Shown here: positions 2,560 through 47,779 of the stretch, in pieces | How positions within the stretch are numbered: position 1 is the first letter of the stretch | How the letters are laid out: every line of letters begins with the position of its first letter | DNA from: a virus | Strand: one strand, 5' to 3' | Virus record (IMG/VR): IMGVR_UViG_3300026078_000033 | Coordinates: 1 to 58,712 of that record | DNA: 58,712 nucleotides | Program-made: the position numbers and the translations under genes | Notes under the pieces: generated by a model | What the model was told of the DNA's origin: nothing | Database searches by the model: none | Seen by the model: the letters and a program-made list of their open reading frames with translations, nothing else

Positions 2560-2897
2560 CAGGCGACACCTGCCTCGGTGAGGACCTCGGCCCAGGCCGC
2601 GTCCAACGCCGCCGCGCGCTCGGCCTTTGCCTGCCGGATCTTGGCCCGGCGGTCGTTGGTGTATTCGGCGTAGGCATCCAGGCACGCGCGGCAGGCCTTC
2701 TCACCGCGGTATCGGTGTGTGTAGTAGCCGGGGAGCGTGCCGCACTGCGCAGGCTCGCGCGCCGCGACCTTGCCGGCGCGGTAGTCGCGGGTGTACTGCG
2801 CCCGGGCCTCACGGCAGGCATCGCACGCCTCTTCACCTGCCTTGATGTGGCGCTGGTAGCGGCCCGGCGTGCCGTGCGGCTTTAGTTCACGCGGCAT
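2559..2897 (-). CDS. Two-repeat zinc-binding protein, paralogue of 5670-6032
   Basis: About 112 residues in two repeats of one motif: HGTPGRYQRHIKAGEEACDAC then CGTLPGY followed by HRYRGEKACRAC, each ending in a basic Y-x-R-x-YR-type helix. Each repeat can bind one zinc. Start chosen at ATG 2897, not the upstream GTG at 2903, because a GAGGAGG ribosome-binding site sits 5 nt before it and would overlap the GTG. The family is familiar in actinophages and is usually left uncharacterised; DNA binding is plausible. The same two-repeat architecture recurs at 5670-6032. Confidence 0.75.
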   Translation of the reverse strand: MPRELKPHGTPGRYQRHIKAGEEACDACREARAQYTRDYRAGKVAAREPAQCGTLPGYYTHRYRGEKACRACLDAYAEYTNDRRAKIRQAKAERAAALDAAWAEVLTEAGVA

Positions 2898-3324
2898 GAG
2901 CACCTCCTCGCGGGCCCCTCACCGCTTGCTTTCCGGCAGCCCCGGCGAACAGGGACCGGTGGTGGGCGTCGCAGTCGTCGCAGGTCGGCAGGACCTCCTC
3001 GCCGGTGTGCTTGAACCGGCCGGCGACGTCGGCGACGACCTGCTTCGGCTCGATGGCGCGCGGGTTGCCGCACCCGGGACACACCGGGCAGTCGTTGCAC
3101 CGCCGGGCGATCAGCGGGGCGGTGGCGAACCGCAGCCGGTTCTTGGCCATCGCGGCCTTCACGTCGGCCAGGCGGTACTCGCCGAGGCCCTTGATCTGCT
3201 TGGCGTTGTCCTCGGTGAGGGCGATCAGCTGGCCGATGGTGTCGATGCCGGCGGCGCGCAGCGCTTTCGGAGCTTCGGTGGTGCAGCCGAGCTCGGCGAT
3301 CGGGGAATCGAAGCGCAGCGCCAT
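2887..3324 (-). CDS. RNA polymerase alpha-CTD-like helix-hairpin-helix protein with zinc ribbon
   Basis: 145 residues from ATG 3324, which overlaps the upstream stop as TGATG; the longer frame to 3378 has no support. Residues 5-66 match the C-terminal domain of the RNA polymerase alpha subunit in pattern: DSPIAEL, then LRAAGIDTIGQLIALTE, IKGLGEYRLADVKAAM, LRF, which corresponds to PVDDLEL / GI-TIG-L / LGKKSL-EIK / GLSL. The DNA-contacting Arg and Asn of real alpha-CTD (E. coli R265, N268) are not conserved. Residues 76-85 (C-x2-C-x2-C-x2-C) and 115-122 (C-x2-C, HH) look like zinc sites. Inference: a transcription-modifying early protein that imitates or engages the alpha-CTD site. Alternatively it is a general HhH DNA-binding protein. 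Confidence 0.65.
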   Translation of the reverse strand: MALRFDSPIAELGCTTEAPKALRAAGIDTIGQLIALTEDNAKQIKGLGEYRLADVKAAMAKNRLRFATAPLIARRCNDCPVCPGCGNPRAIEPKQVVADVAGRFKHTGEEVLPTCDDCDAHHRSLFAGAAGKQAVRGPRGGAHAA

Positions 3325-3737
3325 CAGCCGCCGGCCTTCGCCACGTCGCTGTCGCTGCCAGTGCTGGCGTCTGCGCACAGCTCAGCGACGATGCGCTCCA
3401 GGTCCTCCACGGCGTTGGCGCCGCTGAACAGCTCCTCCGCCTGCTCCGGCGTCAGCCCGAGCAGGTGTCGCGCGGCCACCGAGACGTGGACGTAACCGGG
3501 CGAGGCCGGGTCGTCGTCGATGTGCTTTTGGAGCTCGTCCGGGCTGGGCAGGCTGGCGCGAAGGACTTCGTCGTCCTCGTCCAGCGTGACGCCGCCGAGC
3601 TTGACGGCCCAGCCTGCGAAGCAGTGAGCCGTGCCGCAGTCGGTCTGCAAAGACCAGTCCCCTTGGTACCAGGTGTCGGGGTACCGCTTGATATAGGTCA
3701 GCGTCTGCTGCAGCAGGACCTTGTTTGGGGTACTCAT
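3324..3737 (-). CDS. Conserved hypothetical protein with CGTAHCFAGWA motif
   Basis: 137 residues. ATG at 3737 is preceded by GGAGA at 7 nt. The N-terminal half has Y-P-x-T-W-Y-Q-x-x-W then CGTAHCFAGWAVKLGG, a motif seen in many phage and Streptomyces hypothetical proteins. The C-terminal half, including ARHLLGLTPEQAEELFSG, is helical and resembles the usual end of that family. Biochemical role unknown. The stop is coupled to the alpha-CTD-like gene by TGATG. Confidence 0.75.
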   Translation of the reverse strand: MSTPNKVLLQQTLTYIKRYPDTWYQGDWSLQTDCGTAHCFAGWAVKLGGVTLDEDDEVLRASLPSPDELQKHIDDDPASPGYVHVSVAARHLLGLTPEQAEELFSGANAVEDLERIVAELCADASTGSDSDVAKAGG

Positions 3738-13128: not shown

Positions 13129-14352
13129 TCAGGACACTACACGCAGCCGCGGACGGTCCAGGGCCGCCTCTATGGCCGCCAGGGCCTCAGTCTCCAGCTC
13201 CTTCACCAAGTGCCCGTATCGGTCCACGGTCGTGGTGATGGACTCGTGCCCCAGGCGCCGCTGAATCGCCGGCAGCGGCACGTTCGCGGCGATCAGCCAC
13301 GATGCGTGAGTGTGCCGCAGGTCCTGTAGCGAGGGGTGCTTGCGTAGGCCGCGCTTCTGCGCCTCCGGCACGGCAAGCCGCCAAAACCGGTGGTACCACT
13401 TCGAGTTCGGCCACGGTTGGTCGGCCTCGTCGACGAAGAGGAAGTCCTCCAGGTCGCGTCCCTTGGCCAGTCGGCGCACGACCTTCGCGCCGGTCTCGGA
13501 GACCGCGAGTGTCCGGCGGGCGCGCTTGCTCTTCGGCGCACCCAGGAACGGCTTGCGGTTCTCGTCTTCCTTCCAGGCCCGATGCACGGTGATGCGCAGC
13601 GGCTCGGCGCCGGGGCTCGGGTCGAGGATGTCCTTCACCTTCAGCGCGAACAGCTCCCCGCGGCGTAGCCCGGTCGAGACGGCCAGCACGGCGACGTCCT
13701 GGGCTTCCGGGGCGAGGCTGCCGAGAAGCAGCTGGAACTCGTCGTACTCCAGGAAGCACATGGTTTCGTCGATCTGGTGATCAGGGCGTGGCAGGTCCGT
13801 CTCCGCGCACGGGTTCGAGGAGCGCAGCGCCGGCCGGGCCTTCATGGCCCCCTTCATGATCTGGAACAGCAGCCCGTGAAGGTTCCAGATGTACTTCGGC
13901 GAGTACGGCTTGCGCAGCCACTCGTCGTCGTCGTTCGGGTCCCGTTCGCCGTCGGCGAGCGCGTTCACCCACAGCGCCACGGTCTCCTCGTTGAAGGCGT
14001 CTTCGTCGCGTACGTCGAGCTGGCCGAAGTACGGGCTCATATGCCGTGCCACAAGCTTGCGGTAGTCGTTGCGGGTCTTGGCGTCAATGCCGGACTTCTT
14101 CTTCAGGTATCGCTCGGCCCAGGCATCGAACAGGACCGGTTCGGGCTTCTCCGCCGGCTTCTCGACGGTGACGAAACCCACCTTCGGCACCCAGCCGGGC
14201 GGGTAGCGGTCGCCGTAGCCCTTGACCAGGCCGAGGAACTTCTCGCGAGTCTCGGGGTCGTCGAAGGTCTCCTGACACGGCTTACCGTCCTGGCGCCACA
14301 GCACCAGATAGGCCATGCCGTTCTTGCGGGGCAGATCTTTGGTGTAGGCCAT
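13129..14352 (-). CDS. int: Tyrosine site-specific integrase
   Basis: 407 residues from ATG 14352. The open frame to 14544 reads through the attP core and is not used here. An N-terminal arm-binding region (about 1-65) is followed by a core-binding SAM-like domain (about 70-180) and the catalytic domain. Visible catalytic residues are R230 (STGLRRGELFALK), a Lys in the PKSKRAR turn, R346 (DLRHTHASWL), H369 (LGHES) and nucleophile Y379 (TVDRYGHL). The first His of the H-x-x-R box is Gln343, a tolerated variation. It directs integration into, and with Xis excision from, a host tRNA gene. attP lies immediately upstream. Confidence 0.93.
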   Translation of the reverse strand: MAYTKDLPRKNGMAYLVLWRQDGKPCQETFDDPETREKFLGLVKGYGDRYPPGWVPKVGFVTVEKPAEKPEPVLFDAWAERYLKKKSGIDAKTRNDYRKLVARHMSPYFGQLDVRDEDAFNEETVALWVNALADGERDPNDDDEWLRKPYSPKYIWNLHGLLFQIMKGAMKARPALRSSNPCAETDLPRPDHQIDETMCFLEYDEFQLLLGSLAPEAQDVAVLAVSTGLRRGELFALKVKDILDPSPGAEPLRITVHRAWKEDENRKPFLGAPKSKRARRTLAVSETGAKVVRRLAKGRDLEDFLFVDEADQPWPNSKWYHRFWRLAVPEAQKRGLRKHPSLQDLRHTHASWLIAANVPLPAIQRRLGHESITTTVDRYGHLVKELETEALAAIEAALDRPRLRVVS

Positions 14353-14404
14353 GCCGCGACGGTAGAACCCCGGAGCTTGATCGTTCCGGGGTTCGACAAG
14401 TTTT

Positions 14405-14604
14405 CTGCAAGTAATTCTCGGGCTGTCGATCTTGTCTTGGGGCTCGCGCTGGTCAGTGCATGTGTGACTGTGCGGAGGATGTGGGATTCGAACCTCCGGC
14501 GTCACCCGTTTGACGTGCGGCGCCGCAGGTCGCCCATCCGACACGTGACGCTAAGAACCCGTGGATAACCGCTAAGGATCAGTTCGCTGCAAGTAAAACT
14601 TGCA
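14405..14604. other. attP: attP: tRNA 3'-end core flanked by integrase arm-type repeats
   Basis: The core at 14471-14494, read on the minus strand, is GGTTCGAATCCCACATCCTC followed by CGCA: a T-loop, T-stem half and acceptor 3' strand (ATCCTCC, discriminator G) like actinobacterial tRNA-Ser genes, which begin GGAGGAT. No 5' tRNA part is present. ctgcaagtaa occurs at 14405-14414 and again at 14587-14596, with an inverted acttgca at 14598-14604, flanking the core as P and P' arm sites would. Integration would rebuild the tRNA 3' end with int next to it. Confidence 0.75.
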
Positions 14605-14622: not shown

Positions 14623-14949
14623 ATGACCGCCGACTACGTCCTCGTGACGACCACCGTGGAAGACGTCGAAGACGCCAAAATGCTCGCCGACTCGATCGTG
14701 AACGCACGACTCGCGGCATGCGCTCACCTCGAACCGACCCGCTCGGTCTACTGGTGGGCCGGCGCCGTCCAGGACGACGAGGAATGGAAGGTGGAGTTCA
14801 AAACGACCGCGCACCGCGCCGCCGAGCTCCAGCAAGCCATCCTCGACCAGCACACCTACAAGACACCGCAGGTGGTCGTGACACCGATCATCGGCGGCTC
14901 GCCGGCCTACCTCGCGTGGCTCACCGCCGAGACGACGCCGCGCACCTAG
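14623..14949 (+). CDS. cutA: CutA1-family divalent-ion tolerance protein
   Basis: 108 residues, the normal CutA1 length. Family signatures in order: TVEDVEDAKMLADSIVNARL then AACAHLEP, SVYWWAGAVQDDEEW, EFKTTAH, and the C-terminal HTYKTPQVVVTPIIGGSPAY with LAWL. CutA1 forms very stable trimers related in fold to PII proteins and is linked to copper or divalent-cation tolerance, though its activity is unsettled. It is a cellular protein, unusual in a phage. It sits just beyond attP and would lie at the prophage end, a typical place for host-benefit cargo. Its stop overlaps that of the convergent regulator. Confidence 0.85.
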   Translation: MTADYVLVTTTVEDVEDAKMLADSIVNARLAACAHLEPTRSVYWWAGAVQDDEEWKVEFKTTAHRAAELQQAILDQHTYKTPQVVVTPIIGGSPAYLAWLTAETTPRT

Positions 14950-16211
14950 ACCTGCTCGGGCGCCACCGCGCGGATCCGCTCCCGCAGCTCGATCGCCTCG
15001 GCCGCGTCGGGCAGCTGCCCGGCGAGCGCGGCCAGGCGCGTACGGCCCATCGTGGTGTCGTCCTCGATTGTGGCGGCGAGCGCGCGCTTGCCGACGTCGA
15101 CCGCCTGGTCGACGTCGCCGGCGGCGAGCCATCCGAGCGCGCTGTCACCGAGCACACTGCACCGGATCTTGGCGTCGTCGTCGCCGAGCGCATCGAGCGC
15201 GTCGACGACGGCGGCGCCGAGCTCGGAGTGTCCAATCCCGGCGTATGTAGAGATGGCCATCGAACCCAGGCGGGCCCGGCGGAAGAAGCGGGTCCAGGCC
15301 TGCTCCGACTCGGGGTTGGCGTAGTCGAAGACGGCACGCGCGCGCTCCAACGCCCGGACGGCGCCCTCGCGGTCGCCGAGGACCGCGGCCTCCTCGGCCT
15401 CCCGGGCGGCCAGCCACGCCGAGGCGGTCGCGTAGCCAGGGCCGCGGACGTGCCGTTGTGCCTCGGCCAGCATGTCGCGCGCACGCTTGGCGGGCGCGGC
15501 GTAGGAGCCGTACCCCAGGGCGAGCGCGGTGACAGCGCCGTGGCCGGCCGCCTGTCCGGCCTGGACGGCGACGTTGTAGTACTGCGCGGCCTTCTTCCGG
15601 TCGCCGAGGTCGTACTCCATCCACCCGGCCAGGGCCGCGGTCTCCCCGGCCGCGATGGCCAGGGCCGCGCGGTATCGGCCGGCGTGAGGCATGAGCGACG
15701 TGAGTGTGTCCAGGTGAGCGGTCAGCCGGTCGATCATCAGCCGGGCCGGGATGTGCTCCTCGGACTCGAACATGCCCGCGGTGGTGGCTTCCAGCGCGTC
15801 CACGGTGGGCTGGTCCAAGCCGCAGCCGTCGAGGGCCGCCGCGAGACGCCCCCAGGGCTCTGAGGCCGCGCCAGCGACGAGGGCCGCGGCGCCGAGGAAG
15901 GTGAATGAGCGCCTGTCCACCTCGCTCTCCGTGCCGTCTAGCATGATCTTGCCGAACGTGCGCTCGGCCCTGGCTGCACTGGCAGCCTTGTCCACCTCGC
16001 GCCGCGGAATTCCGTAGGCCGTGGCGATGGCGTCGCGCCAGAACGGCTCGGGGATCCGCTTGCCGAGCTCCCAGCGCTTGACGTTGCCGAGAACACCCTC
16101 AACGTCCCTTCCCATGGCGGTGGCGATCACCGTCGCGATCTCCTTGCGGGTACGCCCCGACTGCTGGCGTAACTGGGTGAGCAGCGGTGCGACGGTGTTG
16201 GCATTCATCAT
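14946..16211 (-). CDS. XRE-type regulator with TPR-like C-terminal domain
   Basis: 421 residues from ATG 16211. HTH at about 5-70 (LLTQLRQQSGRTRKEIATVI and VKRWELGKRIPEPFWRDAIA). Then DRRSFTFLGAAALVAG, a signature seen in Streptomyces XRE regulators, and a long helical repeat region of TPR type (repeated A...A-L...A pairs to the C-terminus). Such proteins sense ligands or partners and control development or secondary metabolism in Streptomyces. Convergent with cutA, stops overlapping by 4 bp. Four TGGCCCCCT repeats lie in its upstream region, candidate autoregulatory sites. Probably lysogenic cargo. Confidence 0.75.
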   Translation of the reverse strand: MMNANTVAPLLTQLRQQSGRTRKEIATVIATAMGRDVEGVLGNVKRWELGKRIPEPFWRDAIATAYGIPRREVDKAASAARAERTFGKIMLDGTESEVDRRSFTFLGAAALVAGAASEPWGRLAAALDGCGLDQPTVDALEATTAGMFESEEHIPARLMIDRLTAHLDTLTSLMPHAGRYRAALAIAAGETAALAGWMEYDLGDRKKAAQYYNVAVQAGQAAGHGAVTALALGYGSYAAPAKRARDMLAEAQRHVRGPGYATASAWLAAREAEEAAVLGDREGAVRALERARAVFDYANPESEQAWTRFFRRARLGSMAISTYAGIGHSELGAAVVDALDALGDDDAKIRCSVLGDSALGWLAAGDVDQAVDVGKRALAATIEDDTTMGRTRLAALAGQLPDAAEAIELRERIRAVAPEQV

Positions 16212-16252
16212 GGGGTCCGCTCTGGGGTGTGTGGGAGCCAGCATTCTCATTC

Positions 16253-16366
16253 TGGCCCCCTAACTGGCCCCCTGTCAGCAAAATGGCCCCCTGCGTGGCG
16301 CCTGACGTGCGCATCTACTTCACGAACACTGGATCAGGGCCCTTGCAAGTGCCACCGTGGCCCCCT
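16253..16366. repeat. Four direct repeats TGGCCCCCT, putative operators
   Basis: Copies at 16253-16261, 16265-16273, 16284-16292 and 16358-16366 lie in the 187-bp region between the leftward TPR regulator and the rightward small genes. The first two begin 12 bp apart. They are likely binding sites of the adjacent regulator, possibly controlling both directions, including the start of the transfer block. Confidence 0.55.
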
Positions 16367-16398: not shown

Positions 16399-16590
16399 GT
16401 GACGAGCTCGACGAGCACCGACATCACCGAGGCCAACGTCTCCGACGCGGAGTTCGGCGCCAGGTTTCTCGCCTACGTCGAGGAGCGCGTCGCCTATCAC
16501 ACCGCCGAGCTGGCCAAGCTGAACGAACTGCGGGAGCTCTGGGCCGCGCGACAGACTCCCCAGGAGGTACACGATGAACAGCCCGGCTGA
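16399..16590 (+). CDS. Small helical protein (63 aa)
   Basis: GTG start preceded by AGAGG. Contains EFGARFLAYVEERVAYHTAE and a Leu-rich helix LAKLNELRELWAARQ, probably a short coiled coil. Overlaps the next gene by 17 bp, whose ribosome-binding site lies in it. Function unknown. Confidence 0.55.
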   Translation: MTSSTSTDITEANVSDAEFGARFLAYVEERVAYHTAELAKLNELRELWAARQTPQEVHDEQPG

Positions 16591-16849
16591 GCCGCCCCCC
16601 GACTGCCGCTGCGGCGGCACCGGCGCCTACACCACCGAAATCTCGCTGGCTGACGCCGTGGTGGTCGTGCGCCGCGTGTGCCTGAAGCACCTGGAGCTCC
16701 GGACCCGGCTGAAGGACACCGCCACCGGCCGCATCGGCGAGGTGATGGAGAAGAACAAGGCTTACCAGCGCGTGCACCTGCGGCCCGTCGGCGGCGGCCG
16801 GGAGTGGACGGCCGACGTCGGCAGCCTCGAATTCGTGGTGCCGGCATGA
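16574..16849 (+). CDS. Small protein with CRCGGTG zinc knuckle (91 aa)
   Basis: AGGAGG 6 nt before the ATG. The N-terminal CRCGGTGAY plus a later Cys (RRVCLKHL) suggest half a DnaJ-type zinc finger. The C-terminal part has a GRIGEVMEKN-like beta segment. ATGA overlap with the next gene. Family unknown. Confidence 0.6.
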   Translation: MNSPAEPPPDCRCGGTGAYTTEISLADAVVVVRRVCLKHLELRTRLKDTATGRIGEVMEKNKAYQRVHLRPVGGGREWTADVGSLEFVVPA

Positions 16850-17100
16850 CCATCCGTACCAAGCACCTCGACAGCGTGACCGTCTACGCAGGCAGCCCCG
16901 CCGAACTCGCGGCCGTCGCTGACGAGTACGCCGACGGCCGACGGCCCATGCCGCGCGGCCTGAACGCCGGACATTTGGAGGTGGTCGCCGAGCAGCTGCG
17001 TGCCGGGCACCGCGTGCACAACCTGGGGCCGTTGCGGTTCTACGCCGACAGGCCCGACGGGACGCCATTCCGCGGGCCCTTCGCGCCCGATGCCCAGTAA
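16846..17100 (+). CDS. Small unknown protein (84 aa)
   Basis: ATG overlaps the previous stop (ATGA). Contains SVTVYAGSPAELAAVADEYA and ADRPDGTPFRGPF near the end. Followed by a strong convergent terminator. Function unknown. Confidence 0.6.
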   Translation: MTIRTKHLDSVTVYAGSPAELAAVADEYADGRRPMPRGLNAGHLEVVAEQLRAGHRVHNLGPLRFYADRPDGTPFRGPFAPDAQ

Positions 17101-17113
17101 CACCACCACGACA

Positions 17114-17140
17114 AGCGCCCGGCCCGAGTGGCCGGGCGCT
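17114..17140. terminator. Convergent terminator
   Basis: An 11-bp perfect inverted repeat (agcgcccggcc / ggccgggcgct) surrounds a 5-nt loop, between the rightward gene ending at 17100 and the leftward HTH gene ending at 17147. Confidence 0.75.
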
Positions 17141-17146
17141 GGTGCG

Positions 17147-17350
17147 TTAGTCGGCCTTCGGAGGGCGCCCGCGCTCGCGGATCTCCACACCGGCGCGAGT
17201 CAGGACAGCCCGCACGTTCTCGTAGCTGAGGTGCGTGAGCCGGGCAATGTCCCGCAGGGCGTTGCGTGCCCGGTAAGCCTCGACGATCAGCGCCTGCGTC
17301 TTGGCGTGCTCCTCGTCCTCGCGGGCCACCTGCGCGGCGAGTCGGCTCAT
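17147..17350 (-). CDS. Small HTH protein (67 aa)
   Basis: ATG 17350 is preceded by GGAGG at 8 nt; an upstream start at 17374 is possible. Residues about 22-58 (VEAYRARNALRDIARLTHLS, YENVRAVLTRAGVEI) form a homeodomain-like helix-turn-helix, ending in a basic RERGRPPK tail. Divergent from the transfer operon, so it may regulate it, as KorA/KorSA-type repressors regulate tra in actinomycete elements. That role is inferred from position. Confidence 0.65.
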   Translation of the reverse strand: MSRLAAQVAREDEEHAKTQALIVEAYRARNALRDIARLTHLSYENVRAVLTRAGVEIRERGRPPKAD

Positions 17351-17449
17351 CACGTCGTCCTCCACGGTGCACATGATCGCAGGTCTAGGCGACGATTCAC
17401 AGCAACCTGAGCTGGGCTGGTTGACGCCATCCGGAAGCGCTGCAACCCT

Positions 17450-17455
17450 TACAAT
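17450..17455 (+). promoter_or_regulatory. Possible promoter (-10 TACAAT) of transfer operon
   Basis: The divergent interval 17351-17509 contains a notably AT-rich patch with TACAAT at 17450-17455. A TTGACG at 17421 is too far (23 bp) to be a standard -35 partner. This is the only obvious promoter-like sequence before the 17510-22684 gene block. Confidence 0.35.
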
Positions 17456-17509
17456 GATAGAGATTCTAACTTTTCTCGGCTGACTACACCACGACCCGAA
17501 GGGCGTCCC

Positions 17510-17800
17510 ATGCGTTCCCACCTCATCGCCCGCGCAGGCCTGGCCACGGCACCCGTGACGGTATTCGCACCCGCCGCCGGTACCGCTCTCACCGGCCACG
17601 GCGCGCCGTGGATCGTCGCGCCCGTCGGCTCGGTGGTCGCGGCCGTCGTCGGCATCCGCGCCGAGCGCCGCGCCGCCTCCACGCGCCGCCGCGGTGTCGT
17701 CGTCGCCGACCCGGCCCCGGACGCCGACGGCATCGTGTGCGCCACCGCGCCACGGGACCTGGTCGGCGTTGACTACGCCTGGTCCGACGAGGCGGCGTGA
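17510..17800 (+). CDS. Small membrane protein of transfer block (96 aa)
   Basis: Two hydrophobic segments (about 5-25 and 32-50: WIVAPVGSVVAAVVGI) are followed by a basic patch AERRAASTRRRG and a soluble tail. The layout resembles small Spd/Tra-associated membrane proteins of actinomycete conjugative elements. First gene of a tightly packed operon leading to the TraB-like translocase. Confidence 0.55.
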   Translation: MRSHLIARAGLATAPVTVFAPAAGTALTGHGAPWIVAPVGSVVAAVVGIRAERRAASTRRRGVVVADPAPDADGIVCATAPRDLVGVDYAWSDEAA

Positions 17801-18009
17801 TGGACACGCGCCCGGACCTGCCGCCGCGGCCCGGTATCGGCTTGGCCGCCGCCGGGCTGCTGGAGGTCGGCCTGACATCGCTGGAGGCCGGCCACCTGCC
17901 CGCCGCAATCGGCTCGCTGGCCGCGATCGACGCCGACGCCTGGACCGCGATCCTCGACCGCTTCCCGAACCTTCCCGCCTTGATCCAGAAATGGAGCAGC
18001 CCCCGATGA
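17800..18009 (+). CDS. Small protein (69 aa) in transfer block
   Basis: ATG overlaps the preceding stop (TGATG); GTG 17797 is an alternative. Amphipathic helices (IGLAAAGLLEVGLTSLEAGH, AWTAILDRFPNLP). ATGA overlap with the next gene. Function unknown. Confidence 0.5.
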   Translation: MDTRPDLPPRPGIGLAAAGLLEVGLTSLEAGHLPAAIGSLAAIDADAWTAILDRFPNLPALIQKWSSPR

Positions 18010-18482
18010 CCACTTCCCTGCTGCCCGCGGCCGTGCTCACGGTCGCCTCGGCGGCGCTGTTCGCCGCGCACCAGTTCGGCGACCACTGGGCCCAAACGCC
18101 GACGCAAGCCATGACCAAGGGCGGATCCGGCTGGTCGGCGCGCACCGCGTGCGCCAGTCACGTCCTGGTCCTGACCGCGGTGAAGCTCGCCGCGCTGCTA
18201 GCCGCGTTCGCCGTGGCCGGCCTGCCGATCCGGCCGGCCTGGTGGGCCGCCGGCCTCGGCGTCGACGCCGCCTCCCACTACTGGGCCGACCGTCGCAGCA
18301 CCCTGCGCGCCCTGGCCGCCGCGTTCGGACCGGGCAAGGCCGCGTTCTTCGACCTCGGCGCCCCTCGCCCCGGCCGCGACGACAACCCGACGCTGGGCAC
18401 CGGTGCGTACGCCCTCGATCAGTCCTGGCACGTCGGATGGCTGTTCATCGCGGCCCTGATCCTCGCGGCGGGTGCCCGATGA
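18006..18482 (+). CDS. DUF3307-like membrane protein
   Basis: 158 residues with about four hydrophobic segments. AAHQFGDHWAQTPTQAMTKG, then HVLVLTAVKLAALLA, and later DAASHYWADRR match the H-x-x-G-D-x-x-x-Q...K-G and HYW-AD landmarks of DUF3307-type proteins found in actinomycete mobile elements. Role unknown. Lies between small membrane proteins and the Spd-like protein with ATGA overlaps, so probably part of the spread machinery. Confidence 0.55.
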   Translation: MTTSLLPAAVLTVASAALFAAHQFGDHWAQTPTQAMTKGGSGWSARTACASHVLVLTAVKLAALLAAFAVAGLPIRPAWWAAGLGVDAASHYWADRRSTLRALAAAFGPGKAAFFDLGAPRPGRDDNPTLGTGAYALDQSWHVGWLFIAALILAAGAR

Positions 18483-19564
18483 ACATCACGAACCTGACGC
18501 ACTGGGCCTCGGCGAACTCGCCATGGTCCTACATCGGCGTCGGCGTCGCAGCGCTACTGACCCTGGTCCTGCTGCTGCTCGCCGCGCTACTGGTGAGCAA
18601 TGCCGTCCGTGTCGCCGGCCGCGAACGCCGCATCTCCGGCCTGATCAACGTGGCCGGCCTGCTGGCCACGTCCGTTCAGGCCACCGGCATGTGGAAGTTC
18701 TTCGGCACCACCATGGGCCTGCCGGGCGCCTTCCGGGTCGTCCTGTTCGGGTTCATGGAAATCGCGCTGCTGGCCTGTGCCCTGCGAGCCCGAGACAACG
18801 TCGAGCGCGGCGACGACGCGGGCATCGACTGGTTCCTGGTGGTGGCGCTGGCGCTGTCCTCCGGCGTCCTGTCGTCCACGGACGCCGCCTCGGCGCAGGA
18901 AGTGCTGATGCGCATCCTGGTGTCTGTTGTGGTGGCGCTGCTGTGGACGCGGGACCTGATGGCCGCGAAGCGGGCGGCCCGCGCGAACGGCGGCCGGCGT
19001 TCCGGCCCGGTGCGCTGGCGCATCACCCCCGAGCGCATCTTCGTGTGGCTTCGCCTGGCGGACGCCATCGACACCACCGTCCAGGGCGTTGAGGCCGGCC
19101 GCCGTGTCTCGCGGTACCTGCGGGCCACCGACCGCGCCGCGCGGTCCTGGCGCTGGCCCTGGAGTTCGGAGGCCCGTGCCGACCGGGCCCGGATGCGACT
19201 CACCACGCACGCCCTGATGCACGGCGACCCGACCGACGTCCACGAGCAGCTGGCCGGCGCGGCGTTCAGCGACGCCCTGAAGCGGCTCGGAATCGGCACG
19301 CCGCAGACGCCCCAGGAACGGCCCGTTCTCAACGTCCTGTCGCCGTTCACACGGCCGTTCCCCCCGCAGACCAAGCCGTTCAGTGTGCCCGTCAAGACCC
19401 TGCCTTCGCCGCCGCCTGAGAACGCGGCCCAGCACGCGCGTGAACTCCACCAGCAGGGCCTGTCCTATCAGGAGATCGGCGACCGCCTCGGCCGGTCGAA
19501 GACGTGGGCCTTCAACGCGGTCAAGGGCCACGCGCCGGCGTCCGTGAACGGCCACGGCGGCTGA
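18479..19564 (+). CDS. Spd-like (DUF2637-type) multi-span membrane protein with C-terminal HTH
   Basis: 361 residues, ATG overlapping the previous stop. Residues 1-150 carry about four to five membrane spans (YIGVGVAALLTLVLLLLAAL; VVLFGFMEIALLACALRA; WFLVVALALSS; MRILVSVVVALLW). A basic cytosolic region follows. The last about 50 residues form a helix-turn-helix (LHQQGLSYQEIGDRLGRSKT, AFNAVKG). DUF2637-type proteins accompany tra genes in Streptomyces plasmids and AICEs. The membrane-HTH fusion could couple DNA recognition to septum-located transfer. Confidence 0.6.
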   Translation: MNITNLTHWASANSPWSYIGVGVAALLTLVLLLLAALLVSNAVRVAGRERRISGLINVAGLLATSVQATGMWKFFGTTMGLPGAFRVVLFGFMEIALLACALRARDNVERGDDAGIDWFLVVALALSSGVLSSTDAASAQEVLMRILVSVVVALLWTRDLMAAKRAARANGGRRSGPVRWRITPERIFVWLRLADAIDTTVQGVEAGRRVSRYLRATDRAARSWRWPWSSEARADRARMRLTTHALMHGDPTDVHEQLAGAAFSDALKRLGIGTPQTPQERPVLNVLSPFTRPFPPQTKPFSVPVKTLPSPPPENAAQHARELHQQGLSYQEIGDRLGRSKTWAFNAVKGHAPASVNGHGG

Positions 19565-19654
19565 TCCCGCATGGTGCCCGGCCGGCACGCACCACCGGCC
19601 GGGTGGCCATGGGGGATCAGCCCTCGATCCGACTCGACCCAAGGAGACACCGCC

Positions 19655-19831
19655 ATGATCCCGAAGACTGCCGCCCAGCACATCGCCGCCGCTGAGAGAG
19701 CTCTGGAACGCGCCGAGCAGCCCTCGGCCTCCCCGTCGGTGGCGAATCACTACCTGCGCGTGGCCGAGGTGCACACGCAGCTCGCCGCCGTCGTGCAGAC
19801 CGAGGCCCGGCAGGCCCGCGACCGGGACTGA
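19655..19831 (+). CDS. Small helical protein (58 aa)
   Basis: AAGGAG 8 nt before ATG 19655. Almost entirely alpha-helical, Ala-rich (TAAQHIAAAERALERAEQPS; VAEVHTQLAAVVQTEA). Common type in the spread regions of actinomycete elements. Function unknown. Confidence 0.6.
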   Translation: MIPKTAAQHIAAAERALERAEQPSASPSVANHYLRVAEVHTQLAAVVQTEARQARDRD

Positions 19832-19931
19832 CGCCCTGGTGGTGCCCGACCGTCCGGAGCGCGGCGGTCGGGCGCCACGAGGGCGTCGACCGGCGTCCCT
19901 CCACAACAAGCCACAGAAAGGAAAACTGATC

Positions 19932-20177
19932 ATGACACGAGCCGACCGGATCCGCCGAGCCAACGAAGCCGCCGCCGACGCGCAGCAGCGCGCCGATGCC
20001 CACCGCAAGGAAACCGACGAGGGCATCCGCAACGCGCGCGGTAGCCGCTACCAGAAGCCCGACACCGAGTTCATCCGCAACTGGAAGCCCCAGCGCGACG
20101 CCGACCAGGAGTACCTCGACGACCGCGCTCGCGAGACCGCCAAGGACGCCGCCAAGGCCAGAAGGCGCTGGTGGTAG
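19932..20177 (+). CDS. Small basic helical protein (81 aa)
   Basis: AAAGGAA precedes ATG 19932. Strongly charged, Arg/Asp/Ala-rich helix (RADRIRRANEAAADAQQRAD; ETAKDAAKARRRWW). No motif. Probably part of the spread/transfer operon. Confidence 0.6.
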   Translation: MTRADRIRRANEAAADAQQRADAHRKETDEGIRNARGSRYQKPDTEFIRNWKPQRDADQEYLDDRARETAKDAAKARRRWW

Positions 20178-20182
20178 CAGCT

Positions 20183-20479
20183 ATGACCCACAGACCGCGC
20201 ACCACCGAGGACGACCTCACGCCTGAGCAGAAAGCCGCGCGTGACGCCGAGCTCGGCCGCCGCCCGCCACACATCACGAAGGAGCACCTCATGAGCCGCA
20301 GCATCCGAGGCCACGCGCAGTACAACAACAAGCCCGACACCAGGCCCACAGGCACCGGCGGCATTCGCGACTACGACCCGAAGCGCCCCGGAGGCGACGC
20401 CGGCACCGGCCCCTACACCGGCGACCACGACTTCAACAGCCGACCCGCGCAGAAGCGGTGGCCCCACGGACGCGGCTGA
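20183..20479 (+). CDS. Small hydrophilic protein (98 aa; alternative start 20291)
   Basis: The frame opens at ATG 20183, but a much better ribosome-binding site (AAGGAG, 7 nt) precedes an in-frame ATG at 20291, which would give 62 residues. The product is Gly/Pro/Asp-rich, containing RDYDPKRPGGDAGTGPYTGD, and probably disordered. Directly upstream of the translocase gene. Confidence 0.5.
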   Translation: MTHRPRTTEDDLTPEQKAARDAELGRRPPHITKEHLMSRSIRGHAQYNNKPDTRPTGTGGIRDYDPKRPGGDAGTGPYTGDHDFNSRPAQKRWPHGRG

Positions 20480-20518
20480 TCCGGCCCGACCTGGCATCTA
20501 TCAGCGAAGGAACCCGCA

Positions 20519-22684
20519 ATGCCCGAGCACACGCTCAACGGCCACGCCAGGGCTGGCGAAATCCCCGTCCAGGCCAAGCCTCTGGCATTCGACCCGTACA
20601 CCGCGCCGCTGGACCCGAACACGCCGCCGGACGCCGTCCCGGCCGCCGCACCGCAGCCGGTGCCGGCGCCCGAGCCGGACGTCGTCGACGAGCGGCAGGA
20701 CCAGACGTCCGACGAGCAGGCCGAGCCGCGCCGGGGCTTCCACCGGATCCGCACCGTCGCAGGCCACCGGCACACCCGCACCGTTGTCCGGCACGCCGCC
20801 TACGTCGCGCAGGGCGCGGCCATCGCGGCACGTCAGCGGCGTGACACCCGCTCGACTGCGCGGCATGAGCGGATGATGCGGGTCGCCGAATCGCAGGGGG
20901 ACCACGCCACCGCGCTGTTGTGGGAGGAGCGGAAGCACCGGCACCTCGCGGACAGGCACGCCCGGCGTATGCAGCTGCTCCACGCACCGGTGCACGCCGC
21001 GAAGTCCGGCGCCTACGGCACCGCGACCGCGGCCGGGCTGCTGCTCGTCATCGGCATATGCCTCGCCGCCGCCGAACACGACCCGCACCAGGTCGCCGCG
21101 CCGTTCATCGACGCCGCCGACGTGGTGAAGTTCGTCATCGCCATGGTGTCGATCCTGTGGCCGCCGGCGGTCCTGGCCGGCATGTTCGCCGGCATCGCCG
21201 CCCTGTGGTCCACCGGCCGCAAGCGTGCCGACATGCCGGGCTGGCTGGTGACCTCCGCCGAGGGCGACGACCTCGTCATCGACGAGCGCACCATCACGCT
21301 GGCGATCAAGGCGCTGCGGATCCAGGGCGTCACGGAGTACATCAAGAAGGGCCTGCCGCTGCAGTACCTGGTGCCCGCCCGCGAAGACGGCCGCGGCACC
21401 TACGCCTCCCTGCGCCTGCCGTCCGGTGTCAGCGCCGAGAAGGTAGCCAAGCGGCGCACCGACCTGGCCACCGGCCTGCACCGGGCGGCGAAGGAGGTGT
21501 TCCCGACCGTCGGCGCCGAGGCCGGGATCCTGAACCTGTGGATCGCCGACAAGGGACGCCTGGAGGAAGGCGCCGGACCGTACCCGCTGCTCACCGAAGG
21601 CAAAGCAGACTTCTTCAAGGGCCTGCCGCTCGGGCGGACCCTGCGCGGGGACCTGATCAGCGCGCCGGTCAACGGCAGGAACACGATCGTCGGCGGCATG
21701 CCTGGTCAGGGCAAGTCCTCGGCAGCGCGGGCCCTGATGGCCGGCGCGGCGCTGGACCCGTCGTGCGAGCTGCGGATCTGGGTGCCGGACGCGAACTTCG
21801 ACTTCGAAGGCTTCAAGACCCGGTGCTCCCGATACGTCATGGGCGCCGAGGACGAACTGATCGAGCTGATCCTGGAGGACTGCGAACTGCTGCACGAGGA
21901 AATCCAGGCCCGGGGCCGGCTGCTGATCGAGTACGAGGAGCCGGAAGTGACGCGCAAGCTCGCCAACGCCGAGCCGCGTCTTCGGCCGCTGATGACGCTG
22001 CTGGAGGAGGCGCACATCGCGTTCAACCACGCCAAGCACGGCAAGGACATCTCGGCGCTGACCATCGAGAACGTGCGTCTCGGACGTAAGCGCGCGGTCC
22101 ATCAGATCGTGTCGACGCAGGCCCCGACGAAGGACAGCATCCCGCGGGACGTCACCCGCAACTGCTCCAACGGGCTCGCCTTCGCCGTCGGCGACCACGT
22201 CGCGAACGATGCGCTGCTCGGCCAGGGCGCCTACCGCGGCGGTCACCGCGCCACCGAGCTGCTGCCGGGCGTGGACCGGGGCGTGTGCCTGGCCAAGGGC
22301 ATCACCGGCGAGCGGTCGGACCTGATCCAGGTGCACTTCATCTCGATCACGCGCGACCGGGACGAGATCACGCCGCTGATCGGTCGCGCGCTCGACGCCG
22401 CGAACGCGTCGGTGTTGCAGGCGCCGGAGCGGCTGGAGAAGCGGGACCTGCTGGAGGACCTCGACGAGGTGCTCGGAACGGAGGCCACGCGGATCGCGGA
22501 CGTGCCGCACCTGCTGCGGCGGCTCGCGCCGACGTGGCCGGCCTACACGAAGCTGACCGGCACGGCGCTGGTGAAGCTGCTCGCCGGGCACGGGATCAAG
22601 GTTCCGTCGACCGGCAACACGTGGCCGCTTGACCCCGCCACCGTCCGCCGCGCGCTCGCCGAACGGTCCGAAAACGACAAGTGA
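20519..22684 (+). CDS. TraB/FtsK-type conjugative DNA translocase
   Basis: 721 residues. A disordered Pro-rich N-terminus is followed by two membrane spans (about 164-186 and 204-230) and the FtsK/HerA motor: Walker A GGMPGQGKS (392-400) and Walker B LMTLLEEAH (491-499). The C-terminal part (about 655-721) reads as a winged helix (PHLLRRLAPTWPAYTKLTGT). This is the size and layout of Streptomyces TraB/TraSA proteins, hexameric pumps that move double-stranded DNA between mycelial compartments after recognising short repeats. A host-type FtsK is less likely given the tra-like neighbours. Last gene of the rightward operon. Confidence 0.8.
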   Translation: MPEHTLNGHARAGEIPVQAKPLAFDPYTAPLDPNTPPDAVPAAAPQPVPAPEPDVVDERQDQTSDEQAEPRRGFHRIRTVAGHRHTRTVVRHAAYVAQGAAIAARQRRDTRSTARHERMMRVAESQGDHATALLWEERKHRHLADRHARRMQLLHAPVHAAKSGAYGTATAAGLLLVIGICLAAAEHDPHQVAAPFIDAADVVKFVIAMVSILWPPAVLAGMFAGIAALWSTGRKRADMPGWLVTSAEGDDLVIDERTITLAIKALRIQGVTEYIKKGLPLQYLVPAREDGRGTYASLRLPSGVSAEKVAKRRTDLATGLHRAAKEVFPTVGAEAGILNLWIADKGRLEEGAGPYPLLTEGKADFFKGLPLGRTLRGDLISAPVNGRNTIVGGMPGQGKSSAARALMAGAALDPSCELRIWVPDANFDFEGFKTRCSRYVMGAEDELIELILEDCELLHEEIQARGRLLIEYEEPEVTRKLANAEPRLRPLMTLLEEAHIAFNHAKHGKDISALTIENVRLGRKRAVHQIVSTQAPTKDSIPRDVTRNCSNGLAFAVGDHVANDALLGQGAYRGGHRATELLPGVDRGVCLAKGITGERSDLIQVHFISITRDRDEITPLIGRALDAANASVLQAPERLEKRDLLEDLDEVLGTEATRIADVPHLLRRLAPTWPAYTKLTGTALVKLLAGHGIKVPSTGNTWPLDPATVRRALAERSENDK

Positions 22685-22949
22685 TCACGGGTTAGGTTCG
22701 GCGATCGGAGTTAGATCCCTAACCTCACCCGGTCAAGATCTTTACATACGCGCTGGTCAGGGCAGATGAGCCCAGTTAACTCGCCGACGCGAGTGAGATC
22801 GGCGGTCCGCGAGGCCCTGGAAACCCGGTTTCGCGGACGCCGGTCCGCCTTACCTCACCGGTCCGGCCCGCCATTTTCAGCCAATGGATGATCACCACCA
22901 TGCCCGGCCGTACGCGGCCGGGCGTCGACGTGTCTGGCATGATCAGCGC
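22685..22949. other. Intergenic region after the translocase: hairpin and short CGGTCCG repeats
   Basis: No gene fits here. ggttagg (22690-22696) pairs with cctaacc (22718-22724), a weak terminator. The heptamer CGGTCCG occurs at 22803-22809, 22841-22847 and 22859-22865. tccgcga and tcgcgga near 22806-22836 can also pair. Short direct repeats next to traB are a feature of clt transfer loci, so this is a candidate, not a demonstration. Confidence 0.35.
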
Positions 22950-43555: not shown

Positions 43556-43950
43556 CAGGCCGCCCTCCTGGTGGTGATTCGGCGGGCTCTGCCCTGCGGG
43601 GACAACCCGGTGATCTCGCCGGCCTTGTACAGCTCCCAGCCGGCGGGGCTGAGGTAGCCGCCGACAAGCCAGTCACCGGCTTTCACGACCGTGACCGACC
43701 CGTCGGGGCCGGTGACTGGCCAGTCCGGGCCGCGGTGGATCCACGACTCGGTCGGCTCGAAGTCCTGGCCGGTGCCGTCGAGGTGGAACTGGCCGCCGCC
43801 CATGCCGTTGCGGGCGAAGGAGTGCGCGGCCTTCTCCAGCTCCTCAGCGGTGAAGTAGTCGCGCTTGCCGTCCTGGCCCTTGACGATCCCGTCGTCCGGC
43901 CCGGCCCTGTAGGCGATCGCCACGATGAACCGCATCGGTTCGTCAGCCAT
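43555..43950 (-). CDS. XkdF-like prohead protease
   Basis: 131 residues. RDYFTAEELEKAAHSFARNG, GGGQFHLDG, ESWIHRGPDWPV, KAGDWLVGGYLSPAGWELYK and GEITGLSPQGRARR follow the XkdF family order (helix 'ae-ie-aah-f', His, W-I, gsWvv, kkGei-G-S-GG). The His of FHLDG and the Ser of GLSPQG are candidate catalytic residues. It overlaps the portal-MuF stop by 8 bp and is followed by the scaffold. Confidence 0.65.
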   Translation of the reverse strand: MADEPMRFIVAIAYRAGPDDGIVKGQDGKRDYFTAEELEKAAHSFARNGMGGGQFHLDGTGQDFEPTESWIHRGPDWPVTGPDGSVTVVKAGDWLVGGYLSPAGWELYKAGEITGLSPQGRARRITTRRAA

Positions 43951-46900
43951 CCGAACCTCCGATCACGAATCCAGGGCCGGGCGCGCAACGGCATCGGGGG
44001 TGGCCTGGCGGCCCGTCGTCGCCGCTGGGGAACGCGTCGTCGAGTGGGATCACGCCGGCGTCGGCGTTGTCCTCGCAGATGGCACAGGCGCCGCTGCTAG
44101 CGATCAGCCACTCCTTGCCGGGCAGGCCGTTGCGCCGGTAGGTGTCCAGCGACGCCTGGGACACGGCGCGGGCGAGTTCGGTGACGGCGACCATCTGGGC
44201 TCGGCTGCCGTTGTCGAGGATGTCCCGCAGGTCCCGCGCCAGGGTGTCGACGCTGTCGCCGTTCTCCAGCGACAGCGCGATCGCCTGGGCCAGGTCGTCG
44301 AAGCGGCCGGCACCGAGGGACTTGATCTGCTGGATTCCCTGCGCGGCGAGCATCTGCTGCAGGCCGGCACCGAGGCCGTCGAACCCGAGGACCAGGTTCG
44401 CCGCGTCCGGGTCACCCGGTGTCCAAGCGCCCCAGTCTGGTGCGGCGCCGTTCACCATGGCCTGCGCGGACCGGTCGCCGAGGACGTAGGCCTCGGTGTA
44501 GGCGTTCGTCAGCACGGCACGGAACGCATCGACCAGCTGCTGGCGGACGCCCTGGTGTTCCAGCCACGCGCGCGCCGTAGCGAGGCCTTCGTCGACATTG
44601 TCGTTGGCTGCCTCGTCGTCGCCGGCGGCCTTGCGGACCGGGTTGAGCGCGAGCCACCGGGCCGCGTAGTCCGCGGTGTCGATACGGGCTGTCAGCGCCG
44701 TACGGAGCCGCTCGGCGTAGATCCGGGCCAGCTCCTGATCCCGTGCCCAGCCAGGCCACTGCTGGACGTTGTCAGGCCCCTGCGGGGCCCGGCCTTTTGG
44801 GTCGTCGGCGGCCTTCGCCATGCCGTCGTGGCAGGTGCAGGCGCCGACGTCGCCGGTATCGGCTCCCGAGCCCTCGCAGCATTCGCAGGGGCCATCGGCG
44901 TGCGCGCCGGCACCAGAGCAGCACGGGCATACCGGCAGGCCGCCGGCTGTCCCTTGACCGCCCTGCGGACCGAGCGGAATCCGTGTCACCTGGTCGCCGC
45001 GGTGTACGGCAAGGTGGGTGAACGTCACCGGCGTCGGCGTGACCGGCTCCGGCGTCTGCTCGCCGTCGTCCAGGTACTTCAGCGTCACGTGCGGGTGGTA
45101 GACCCGGTGCTCGGACGCAGATAGGTCGGCGAGCATGCCGTTCAGGTCGTGCGCTGCGGGCAGCTCGACCCTCGCGAACGCCGGCGTCTTGCCGTCGCTG
45201 CCTGCCGACGGCGTGAACGTGTCGACGCCGTGCACGGTCCCGGACACCGGCCCGGGTATCGCCGCGGCGGCCGCGCCGGCACGCGCGACCGCCTGGGCGA
45301 ACGCGTCGTCGTCGACGTCCGGGCCGAGGTACACGATCGTGATGTGGTGGTCGGCAAGGCCGCCGGGCGTGACCGGGATGGTTCCGGGCTCCAGGTCCAG
45401 CGAGATCATGCCGGAGCGCTTCGTTAGGCCCGGCACGGCGCCGGCCTTGTTCACTTGCTGGGAGGAGTGCATCTCGTCCCAGGGGCCGACTGCCTTGTCT
45501 GGGTGGGCGATGTAGGCCCGCAGCGGCACCCCGGCGCGCTGGGCGCCTTCGGCCCTGTGGTGGCCGTCGGCGACCATCAGCGCGCTCTCACCCGGCCGTT
45601 CGATCAGTACCGCCGGCTTCACCGGCTTCCCGGCGCGGATCTTCCGGACGGTCTTGTCGACACGGCCGGGCTCGGAGCTGGCGGCCCAGGTGTCCTGGTC
45701 GGAGAAGTCGATGTTCTCCAGCGGCACCGACACCGGGCCGGTCCAGCGCAGACCCTTGACCCAGCCGATGGCCTCGGCCGGGAAGTTGTCGGCCAGCTGC
45801 TCGTACACGGCCTGCGCGGTCGCATCGGCCTTGGCCTTGACGACCTGGGCGACTTCGGCCCGACCGCCGCGGTTCAGCTCGGCGGCCACGGCCTGCGGGA
45901 CGGTGGTGAAGGCGAAGTCCCTGTCCCACGCGCCGCGGCGGCTCGCACCCTTGACGAACACCCGAAACGCGGCCAGCTCGCCCTCCTGGGCGCGGTCGCG
46001 ATCACCCTGGTACTGCCAGCCGCGCCGATGCGTCACGACCGTGTCGCCCTTGACGACCTGCCACGAAACGCCCTTGCTGACGTCCTTCTCGTCGTCCTCT
46101 TGGTCGTCCTGCTGCGCCGGGGACGGGGCGGCAGCTGGTGCCGCCGGGGCGGCCGGCGCCGCGGTGGCGTCCGGCGTCGGCTGGCTCTCGCGGTTCGGGT
46201 TCTCCGACGCGTCGAGCTGCTGCCGTGCGGCCACCTGCGCGGCGTCGGTCGCGGCGAGCGAGGCCTTGTCGTCGGTGGTGCCCGGGTGCGGGATCACACC
46301 GATCGCCGGAACGAACGGCTGATCCAGCGCCTTCTGGCTCCTGTCGGGGCCAAACGTTTCCGGATCGGTCTTGCCCGCGACGCTCTCGATCGACAGCAGC
46401 GGGATCGGGCCCAGCCGCGCGGTGGAGTAGAACCGCGGGGTCGGGCGTTCCTTGTCGATCGGCTTGCCGAGCACGTCCACACGCACCTCGTCCGAAGACA
46501 GGGCACCCATGTCCACGTACAGCTTGTTCGCCTGCGCCTCCTGGAGCCGGTCCTCGACCTCGCGGCCTGTGTCCAGCCGCACCTTCACCGGCAGCCCGAT
46601 GTCGTGCTGCAGGTACCGGGTCAGGATGCCCTCGACGTACCGCACCCACGGCAGCGTATTGACGCGGAACTGAATGTCCGTCTGCGTCTCGCCGGTAGCG
46701 CGGTTGACGTCGCCGGTCAGGGACAGGTCCTGGGACACCACGCCGAACGCGGCGCAGGTCCGGATCATCAGGTACTCGGGGAAAGCCTTGTCGAACGTCG
46801 CCGGCTTGGTCGCGATGTAGTCGGAGTCGGCAGGGACGGCGATCAGCTGGCGCATCTTGGCCTGGTCGCCCATCACCATGGCGTCCCAGTAGTCCTGCCA

Positions 46901-47779
46901 CTCGGCAACCTGGTCCGGGGAGGACACGTCCGGCGGGACCTTGATGAACCCGGCCGGCACCGAGCCCTCGGTGAACATCTGCAGGAAGTGCCACTGGAAC
47001 CGGATGTCGGTGTTCGCGGTCAGCAGGATCGACTCGATCGGGGCCAGCCCGAACGGGGAGTCCTCCTGGGGCCGGAACGGCACGTAGATGATGTCGTCGG
47101 TGGTGAGCCAGTCGGCGACCATGCCGTGGACGGTCTGCCAGTACGCCGGCGCGGGTGCTTTCGGGCGGCGGCCGTTCTCGTCGATGTACGGGTTGATCGT
47201 CTTACCGTCGACGACCTCCAGGGCGATGATGTTGCCGTCGTAGTCACGGCGGCGGTACAGCGGCGCACTGTCGTATTTGAGGGCGTTCTCCAGCCACTTG
47301 GAGACCCACGACTCGTACGGCAGCTCCCGGTCCGGGTAGGCCAGGACCAGCTTCGCGACGTCGATGGCTTCGTCGACGTCGTCCTTGACGCCGTCGGCGG
47401 GCTGGAACATCAGCTCCATCGACCGGATTTCGTCGATCTTGTGGTTGATGCACATCCGCGCGACGTCGTAGGCGTCGATGAGGGCCTTGAGGACGTCGTA
47501 GGAGACCTTCCCCCACGACGCGCGGGAGCGGGTGCTGATGTTGACGCCGACCGGGTAGTCCATGGCGCGGGTGCGCTGGGAGTACCCGAAGTACGGGTTC
47601 ATCGGCGCGCCGGGCCCGAACGATCCCGTGGTGTTCATGCCGTGCTGGTTCAGCGACTGCCGGATCGGCGCCGGCGTGGCAGGCGCGACGGTGGTCGGCC
47701 GGCGCACGGCCACCGTGGAGCCGCCGCTAGGGGCGCTCGAGCCGTTGCGGAGCTGCCGAGGCAGAGATGACCGTGGCAC
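43943..47779 (-). CDS. Portal-ParB-like-2H phosphodiesterase-zinc-MuF fusion protein
   Basis: 1278 residues from GTG 47779 (GTG 47713 possible). Residues about 60-480 are a siphovirus portal (YDVARMCINHKIDEIRSMEL; DDIIYVPFRPQEDSPFGLAP; FGVVSQDLSLTGDVNRATGE). After a Pro/Ala linker, about 600-765 ends in a ParB-like core (AVLIERPGESALMVADGHHR, then AEGAQRAGVPL). Residues about 805-905 have both motifs of the 2H phosphoesterase superfamily: DHHITIVYLG (H812-x-T814) and YHPHVTLKYL (H897-x-T899). Residues 951-983 hold eight Cys in DnaJ-like CPCC/CECC/CTC clusters. Residues about 1075-1268 are a MuF minor-head domain ending CAICEDNAD...PPGHPRCRC. Portal and MuF are usually separate genes. The inserted enzymes would be packaged in the virion; anti-defence or effector action is inferred. 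Confidence 0.82.
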   Translation of the reverse strand: MPRSSLPRQLRNGSSAPSGGSTVAVRRPTTVAPATPAPIRQSLNQHGMNTTGSFGPGAPMNPYFGYSQRTRAMDYPVGVNISTRSRASWGKVSYDVLKALIDAYDVARMCINHKIDEIRSMELMFQPADGVKDDVDEAIDVAKLVLAYPDRELPYESWVSKWLENALKYDSAPLYRRRDYDGNIIALEVVDGKTINPYIDENGRRPKAPAPAYWQTVHGMVADWLTTDDIIYVPFRPQEDSPFGLAPIESILLTANTDIRFQWHFLQMFTEGSVPAGFIKVPPDVSSPDQVAEWQDYWDAMVMGDQAKMRQLIAVPADSDYIATKPATFDKAFPEYLMIRTCAAFGVVSQDLSLTGDVNRATGETQTDIQFRVNTLPWVRYVEGILTRYLQHDIGLPVKVRLDTGREVEDRLQEAQANKLYVDMGALSSDEVRVDVLGKPIDKERPTPRFYSTARLGPIPLLSIESVAGKTDPETFGPDRSQKALDQPFVPAIGVIPHPGTTDDKASLAATDAAQVAARQQLDASENPNRESQPTPDATAAPAAPAAPAAAPSPAQQDDQEDDEKDVSKGVSWQVVKGDTVVTHRRGWQYQGDRDRAQEGELAAFRVFVKGASRRGAWDRDFAFTTVPQAVAAELNRGGRAEVAQVVKAKADATAQAVYEQLADNFPAEAIGWVKGLRWTGPVSVPLENIDFSDQDTWAASSEPGRVDKTVRKIRAGKPVKPAVLIERPGESALMVADGHHRAEGAQRAGVPLRAYIAHPDKAVGPWDEMHSSQQVNKAGAVPGLTKRSGMISLDLEPGTIPVTPGGLADHHITIVYLGPDVDDDAFAQAVARAGAAAAAIPGPVSGTVHGVDTFTPSAGSDGKTPAFARVELPAAHDLNGMLADLSASEHRVYHPHVTLKYLDDGEQTPEPVTPTPVTFTHLAVHRGDQVTRIPLGPQGGQGTAGGLPVCPCCSGAGAHADGPCECCEGSGADTGDVGACTCHDGMAKAADDPKGRAPQGPDNVQQWPGWARDQELARIYAERLRTALTARIDTADYAARWLALNPVRKAAGDDEAANDNVDEGLATARAWLEHQGVRQQLVDAFRAVLTNAYTEAYVLGDRSAQAMVNGAAPDWGAWTPGDPDAANLVLGFDGLGAGLQQMLAAQGIQQIKSLGAGRFDDLAQAIALSLENGDSVDTLARDLRDILDNGSRAQMVAVTELARAVSQASLDTYRRNGLPGKEWLIASSGACAICEDNADAGVIPLDDAFPSGDDGPPGHPRCRCAPGPGFVIGGSDG

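Follow-up and report, generated by a model that had tools for sequence, protein, structure and literature searches.

A TraB-type transfer block with a candidate recognition site in the genome of a temperate tailed phage

The DNA considered here is the IMG/VR virus record IMGVR_UViG_3300026078_000033, which was analysed over its full 58,712 bases (GC 70%; hereafter the window) and which, judged by its genes, is a temperate tailed phage (Caudoviricetes). Its plus strand carries, from 16399 to 22684, a block of genes resembling the transfer regions of actinomycete integrative and conjugative elements (AICEs). The block is real and all its genes are open, and a preliminary description of this DNA had both its coordinates and its content right, namely small membrane proteins, a DUF3307-like protein, a Spd-like protein with a helix-turn-helix (HTH) tail and a TraB/FtsK translocase. 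The same description took the whole for a single rightward operon, which stands for 17510–22684 and falls for the block in its entirety: a minus-strand HTH_58 gene intervenes and splits the operon proper from the left part, which runs from 16399 to about 17100. The features of the block, together with the DNA directly behind it, are the following:

16399–16849, plus strand: two small proteins (63 and 91 aa), leftmost in the block
17147–17374, minus strand: HTH_58 DNA-binding protein, 75 aa (HTH_58, E=2e-7), divergent from the 17510–22684 operon
17510–17800, plus strand: small membrane protein, 96 aa, operon member
17797–18009, plus strand: small protein, 70 aa, operon member
18006–18482, plus strand: DUF3307-like membrane protein (weak Pfam match, E=0.016; PHROG 2470 membrane protein, E=9e-13)
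18479–19564, plus strand: Spd-like membrane protein, 361 aa, with four hydrophobic segments and a C-terminal HTH
19571–20479, plus strand: three small proteins of 86, 112 and 102 aa between spd and traB
20519–22684, plus strand: TraB/FtsK-like DNA translocase, 721 aa (PHROG 1358 FtsK/SpoIIIE-like, E=4e-19; PF01580 weak, E=0.0013)
22685–22859, no strand: conserved stretch without genes, a candidate clt (TraB recognition site); its GTTAGGT-like repeats lie at 22690, 22709, 22717, 22722 and 22852

Judged by its sequence, the 721-aa protein is a member of the TraB family of actinomycete plasmids and AICEs and not a chromosomal FtsK. Membrane or hydrophobic segments (about residues 167–229) lie ahead of the motor, the conserved motifs include a Walker A (GGMPGQGKSS) and a Walker B-like LLEEAH, and the chain ends in a winged helix of the GIKVPSTGN type, whose helices and strands appear in the predicted model and are conserved in relatives. 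Compared with solved folds, that model most resembles the FtsK motor (E=1e-15), with the conjugation protein TcpA also among the best; a phmmer search of the protein against PDB sequences gave no match. Its best plasmid matches are TraB proteins, including those of pSVH1 and the pCM32 gene. A phylogeny against TraB and chromosomal FtsK had been proposed as a check, and in a quick tree of 78 rows with long outgroup branches the protein is nested among AICE and plasmid TraBs, with chromosomal FtsK and EccC outside on long branches. It belongs there to a five-row clade (support 100) with the virus record L140, an Actinospica chromosomal copy and two other actinomycete genome copies. The closest relative is the Actinospica copy (70% protein identity; 79.5% DNA identity over 1,677 bp), against which the motor has a nonsynonymous-to-synonymous rate ratio (dN/dS) of 0.23, an average across both lineages that points to purifying selection. 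Two further observations come from Actinospica: residues 573–720, the winged-helix region, match at 44% a frame ending a DnaB-N/DUF3987 gene region (L089:7353-7805, minus strand), as though pump and replication protein had a common DNA-recognition domain, and L088:9440-10570 (plus strand) holds a second, truncated TraB copy that lacks the Walker A part.

The likeness to AICE transfer regions, which had been claimed from the gene content, extends to gene order, with DUF3307, Spd, small genes and TraB arranged as in pCM32 and in AICE-like elements. Homologues of the DUF3307-like protein sit upstream of traB in pCM32 and in six virus records, and relatives of the Spd-like protein (54–66% identity) are encoded directly 5' of traB in AICE-like elements (genome of the Actinospica family), near which integrase, GntR and prim-pol-like genes were named by reading the translations. 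In pCM32, DUF3307 precedes TraB, which is followed downstream by prim-pol, a small HTH gene and the integrase. Elsewhere in the window, residues 207–301 of the gene at 56570–57718 (minus strand) are about 40% identical to sequence slightly upstream of spd in two of the AICE-like elements, L129 and L130.

Behind the traB stop, about 175 bp of non-coding DNA are common to the window and Actinospica. The first 200 bp after the window traB hold five GTTAGGT sites where 0.18 would be expected (one mismatch allowed), which makes this the densest spot genome-wide; the signal came from the repeat common to Actinospica and was afterwards tested across the whole window genome, and simply counting which 7-mer is most frequent behind traB did not set the window apart. 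A control scan for clustered 8-mers found, directly behind the traB of pSVH1, the repeats GACCCGGA, which we take to be the 8-bp TraB recognition sequence (TRS) of that plasmid. The pSVH1 TraB binds repeated 8-bp motifs (TRS) via helix alpha-3 of its C-terminal winged helix (PMC4170104; PMC3583192), and the proven clt of pWTY27 consists of 16 bp of traA and the following 159 bp (175 bp in all), with 7-bp repeats (PMC3583192). Thus, 22685–22859 is a candidate clt that the window TraB may recognise.

Across plasmids, AICEs and phages, the type of repeat appears to follow the type of winged helix. GTTAG repeats accompany G[VI]xV[PA]STGN winged helices and close variants (the window, Actinospica, L131, pCM32, L146, L147 and L149), with exceptions in L140, L145 and L152, which have only 0–1 GTTAG, and AGGGA(G) repeats accompany winged helices of the KSDG kind. 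In all 13 of the 13 other virus records with a KSDG-kind TraB, the AGGGA count after traB is the maximum of its locus, for a total of 81 against 2.8 expected. In addition to their AGGGA repeats behind traB, two AICE-like elements have a second, TGACTCACC-like repeat between spd and traB: L129 (in the 400 bp upstream of 9339) and L130 (11282-11333). Phage FtsK-like genes without an assigned role do exist (PHROG 1358; Streptomyces phage Gilgamesh), and the translocase might accordingly serve some other phage function, such as movement of host or phage DNA in infection, exclusion of elements or genome segregation at septation. Gilgamesh, a 129-kb phage whose FtsK-like protein is 28% identical to a phage TraB, has just that gene and a membrane gene, with no Spd or DUF3307 annotated beside it, whereas the window has plasmid-type Spd and DUF3307 partners and a matched repeat site, and we regard such another role as quite improbable.

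The transfer block shares one replicon with a phage gene set that the preliminary description had also recognised, with its integrase and lysis genes. The landmarks are:

13129–14544, minus strand: tyrosine integrase (PF00589, E=1e-18), phage-like, 35% to Streptomyces phage Chymera
24863–25936, minus strand: endolysin, convergent neighbour of the transfer block
47727–49133, minus strand: terminase large subunit (TerL)

The minus strand encodes TerL, a portal-MuF fusion, the tape measure, tail proteins and the endolysin; the terminase, portal, tape measure and endolysin that mark Caudoviricetes are thus all present, as are an integrase, a regulator and a single-strand annealing protein. No sheath was matched among the proteins scanned and a tape measure protein is present, in a search that was not aimed at siphovirus assignment. 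An end-repeat comparison found an exact copy of bases 1–126 at 58576–58701, followed by an 11-base tail that forms a hairpin with the end copy in the style of an assembly tip. Because the terminal 126 bases recur exactly, the molecule closes at about 58,575 bp; IMG/VR classifies the same record as linear. The window terminase had no match in genomes of the Actinospica family, and the host of this complete temperate phage is presumed to be a filamentous soil bacterium. An AICE is defined by an integrase, a Rep and a Tra (PMC3218068). The window has the integrase and a Tra protein, yet no Prim-Pol was found, Pfam scans of the non-structural genes returned no replication family, and a search for RepSA, made without a positive control, gave nothing. 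The window is therefore not classed as an AICE, although its transfer part is AICE-like.

The preliminary description knew of no integrating siphovirus with a TraB operon. In the literature covered, which excludes subscription papers and preprints, no integrating siphophage was found to be described as carrying TraB, but the window is not unique. A search with the family alignment surfaced 47 IMG/VR loci with TraB relatives, where patterns built on the window TraB or Spd by itself gave none, and a terminase is also present in 15 of the 39 IMG/VR records with TraB that were tested. End repeats close several of these records as circles (G249, 115 bp; G279, 141 bp; G275, 99 bp; G252, 126 bp), and searches placed a terminase in the closed circles G249, G279 and G275. 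In G248, DUF3307-SpdB-TraB adjoins a convergent endolysin in the same slot and orientation as in the window (SpdB and endolysin named by reading), and in G275 and G278 TraB lies a short way 5' of genes for HNH, terminase and portal-like proteins that share its strand (some of them named by reading). The TraBs of phages and of elements are intermixed on the tree: the state changes 10 times or more, and the grouping of all phage copies in one clade is rejected, which speaks for repeated exchange and several acquisitions. Some of these virus records may be prophages beside AICEs. Record G255 (IMG genome 2891456851) contains a related prophage. A search for related phages with or without the block had been suggested: all 36 terminase relatives of the window phage that were tested lack TraB, and INPHARED phages queried with the window TraB, the window Spd and the G279 TraB gave no match.

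The window record is itself an assembly product, so that a chimeric contig of phage and AICE, or a prophage lying beside an AICE, has to be weighed. Against this stand the circular closure, a GC content, tetranucleotide make-up and codon usage that are unchanged over the block, and the failure to find any AICE replication gene in the window. A chimeric join is made unlikely also by the same arrangement in G248 and by the other, circularly closing virus records in which TraB and terminase occur together, and we consider this explanation scarcely credible. Alternatively, the block could be passenger DNA from a recent AICE insertion, unused by the phage and heading for loss: the 79.5% nucleotide identity with the Actinospica copy indicates a fairly recent exchange, and the terminase relatives do without the block. 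Yet the open genes and the constraint on the motor (averaged as it is over both lineages), the retained repeat site and the recurrence of the association in unrelated phages, with several acquisitions, are at odds with decay, making this an improbable account.

In light of these observations, we read the block, with a probability of roughly two in three, as a working TraB-type transfer module that a temperate phage acquired from a mycelial actinomycete's AICE or conjugative plasmid and has kept. In the known TraB system, one hexameric motor acts at the repeats of clt on double-stranded DNA, and Spd proteins serve spreading (PMC4170104, PMC3583192, PMC9513070); since that system works so, transfer or spreading of the excised circle is the simplest reading, and by this analogy the most likely use of the module would be transfer of the excised circle or its intramycelial spread. 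Once excised, or at an early stage of lytic replication, the genome of the phage would be a double-stranded circle; we infer that the winged helix of a hexameric TraB would then bind the GTTAGGT repeats just behind its own gene, and that the motor, assisted by the Spd and DUF3307 membrane proteins, would pump the circle across the membrane into a neighbouring hypha or through septal cross-walls, whereupon the circle would integrate. The phage would in this way spread by two routes, as virions and from cell to cell without lysis.

A narrower possibility is that the module serves intramycelial spreading only, with circles passing through septal cross-walls so that a lysogen or an infection reaches all compartments, and with no transfer to other mycelia. 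The Spd-type and small membrane genes do make up much of the block, plasmid spd genes act in spreading after transfer (PMC4170104), and such a function suits a host with cross-walls. However, plasmid TraB is needed for transfer itself, and because the same plasmid pump is thought to do both, transfer and spreading are hard to separate by sequence; a module restricted to spreading appears unlikely, though it deserves to be taken seriously. Several points also weigh against the working transfer module itself. The window repeats are fewer and more degenerate than those of Actinospica (three exact GTTAG versus six), and G248, whose TraB is the closest among phages, lacks GTTAG repeats behind traB. 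The association of repeat type with winged-helix type (Mann-Whitney p=1e-8) was found during exploration among rows related by descent, so that its p is descriptive only. A GntR regulator of the kor type, such as pSVH1 has, was not found next to the block, and the terminase relatives without the block mark it as dispensable.

Candidate regulators of the block lie on its left side, and two features there complete the set:

14946–16250, minus strand: XRE-type regulator (PHROG 10886)
16253–16366, no strand: four direct TGGCCCCCT copies, a candidate operator, between the divergent XRE gene and the block

The TGGCCCCCT copies were also considered as a clt and judged more likely to be an operator because of their overlap with the DNA upstream of the XRE gene. 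The XRE gene with these copies, and the HTH_58 gene as a candidate local regulator, might thus control the block. Several other features of the phage stand apart from transfer. A complete gene for the divalent-ion tolerance protein CutA1 (14623–14949, plus strand; PF03091, E=2e-31), an unusual phage cargo, lies between integrase and regulator. The portal and MuF-type head protein form a single 1278-aa frame (43943–47779, minus strand) with a weak ParB-like stretch mid-protein, and a related fusion is found in Arthrobacter phage Sonali. The small protein at 2887–3378 (minus strand) has an RNA polymerase alpha C-terminal domain (PF03118, E=3e-8) and could act on host transcription, and four direct GTTGCCGGTAC-like copies within 100 bp at 1771–1870 are a possible further regulatory site.

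Set against known systems, the window shares with AICEs of the pSAM2 and pCM32 type a tyrosine integrase, TraB, Spd-like and DUF3307-like genes in similar order and repeats after traB, but differs in its tailed-phage gene set, its phage-like integrase and the lack of a prim-pol or other AICE replication gene in the scans. With the TraB/clt systems of the Streptomyces plasmids pSVH1, pWTY27 and pIJ101 it has in common a single FtsK-like membrane motor with a C-terminal winged helix and spd genes, and with pSVH1 and pWTY27 a repeat site adjoining the motor gene; it departs from them in the repeat (GTTAGGT), in the winged helix and in being phage-borne. The conjugative prophage Phi1207.3 of Streptococcus pyogenes, whose reported movement fits conjugation (PMC4260502), is a parallel in being prophage-type, and FtsK is unmentioned in that paper. 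The Streptomyces plasmid-phage pZL12, as far as it is related in two later papers (Zhong et al. 2010, via PMC4487206, PMC3583192), joins phage genes and mating transfer in one element, so that this combination is already a known kind; the window differs from it in having an integrase and a TraB with its own repeat site. No ParA or RepA appeared in the window scans made, none of which was aimed at plasmid replication or partition genes. What is new relative to the literature found is the integrating phage with TraB and a matched site, and the recurrence of this association across phages.

One element would thus join two textbook routes of gene transfer, and it is not a single oddity. Given that unrelated phages carry pairs of pump and site too, some phages may spread between cells without virus particles. 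We would give even odds to the broader proposition that temperate phages which integrate in mycelial actinomycetes have repeatedly acquired TraB-clt modules and use them to spread by a second path that needs no lysis. They would form a whole class of phages, mobile as virions as well as through conjugation of double-stranded DNA, with each pump made genome-specific by its matched repeat. If such a phage passes between hyphae without lysis, the phage receptor would not be needed for that step, and, because chromosomal DNA, too, is believed to be mobilised by TraB from sites resembling clt (PMC4170104), the phage could carry host markers along. The pairs of winged helix and repeat would offer a simple code, testable by binding assays, to predict which pump moves which element.

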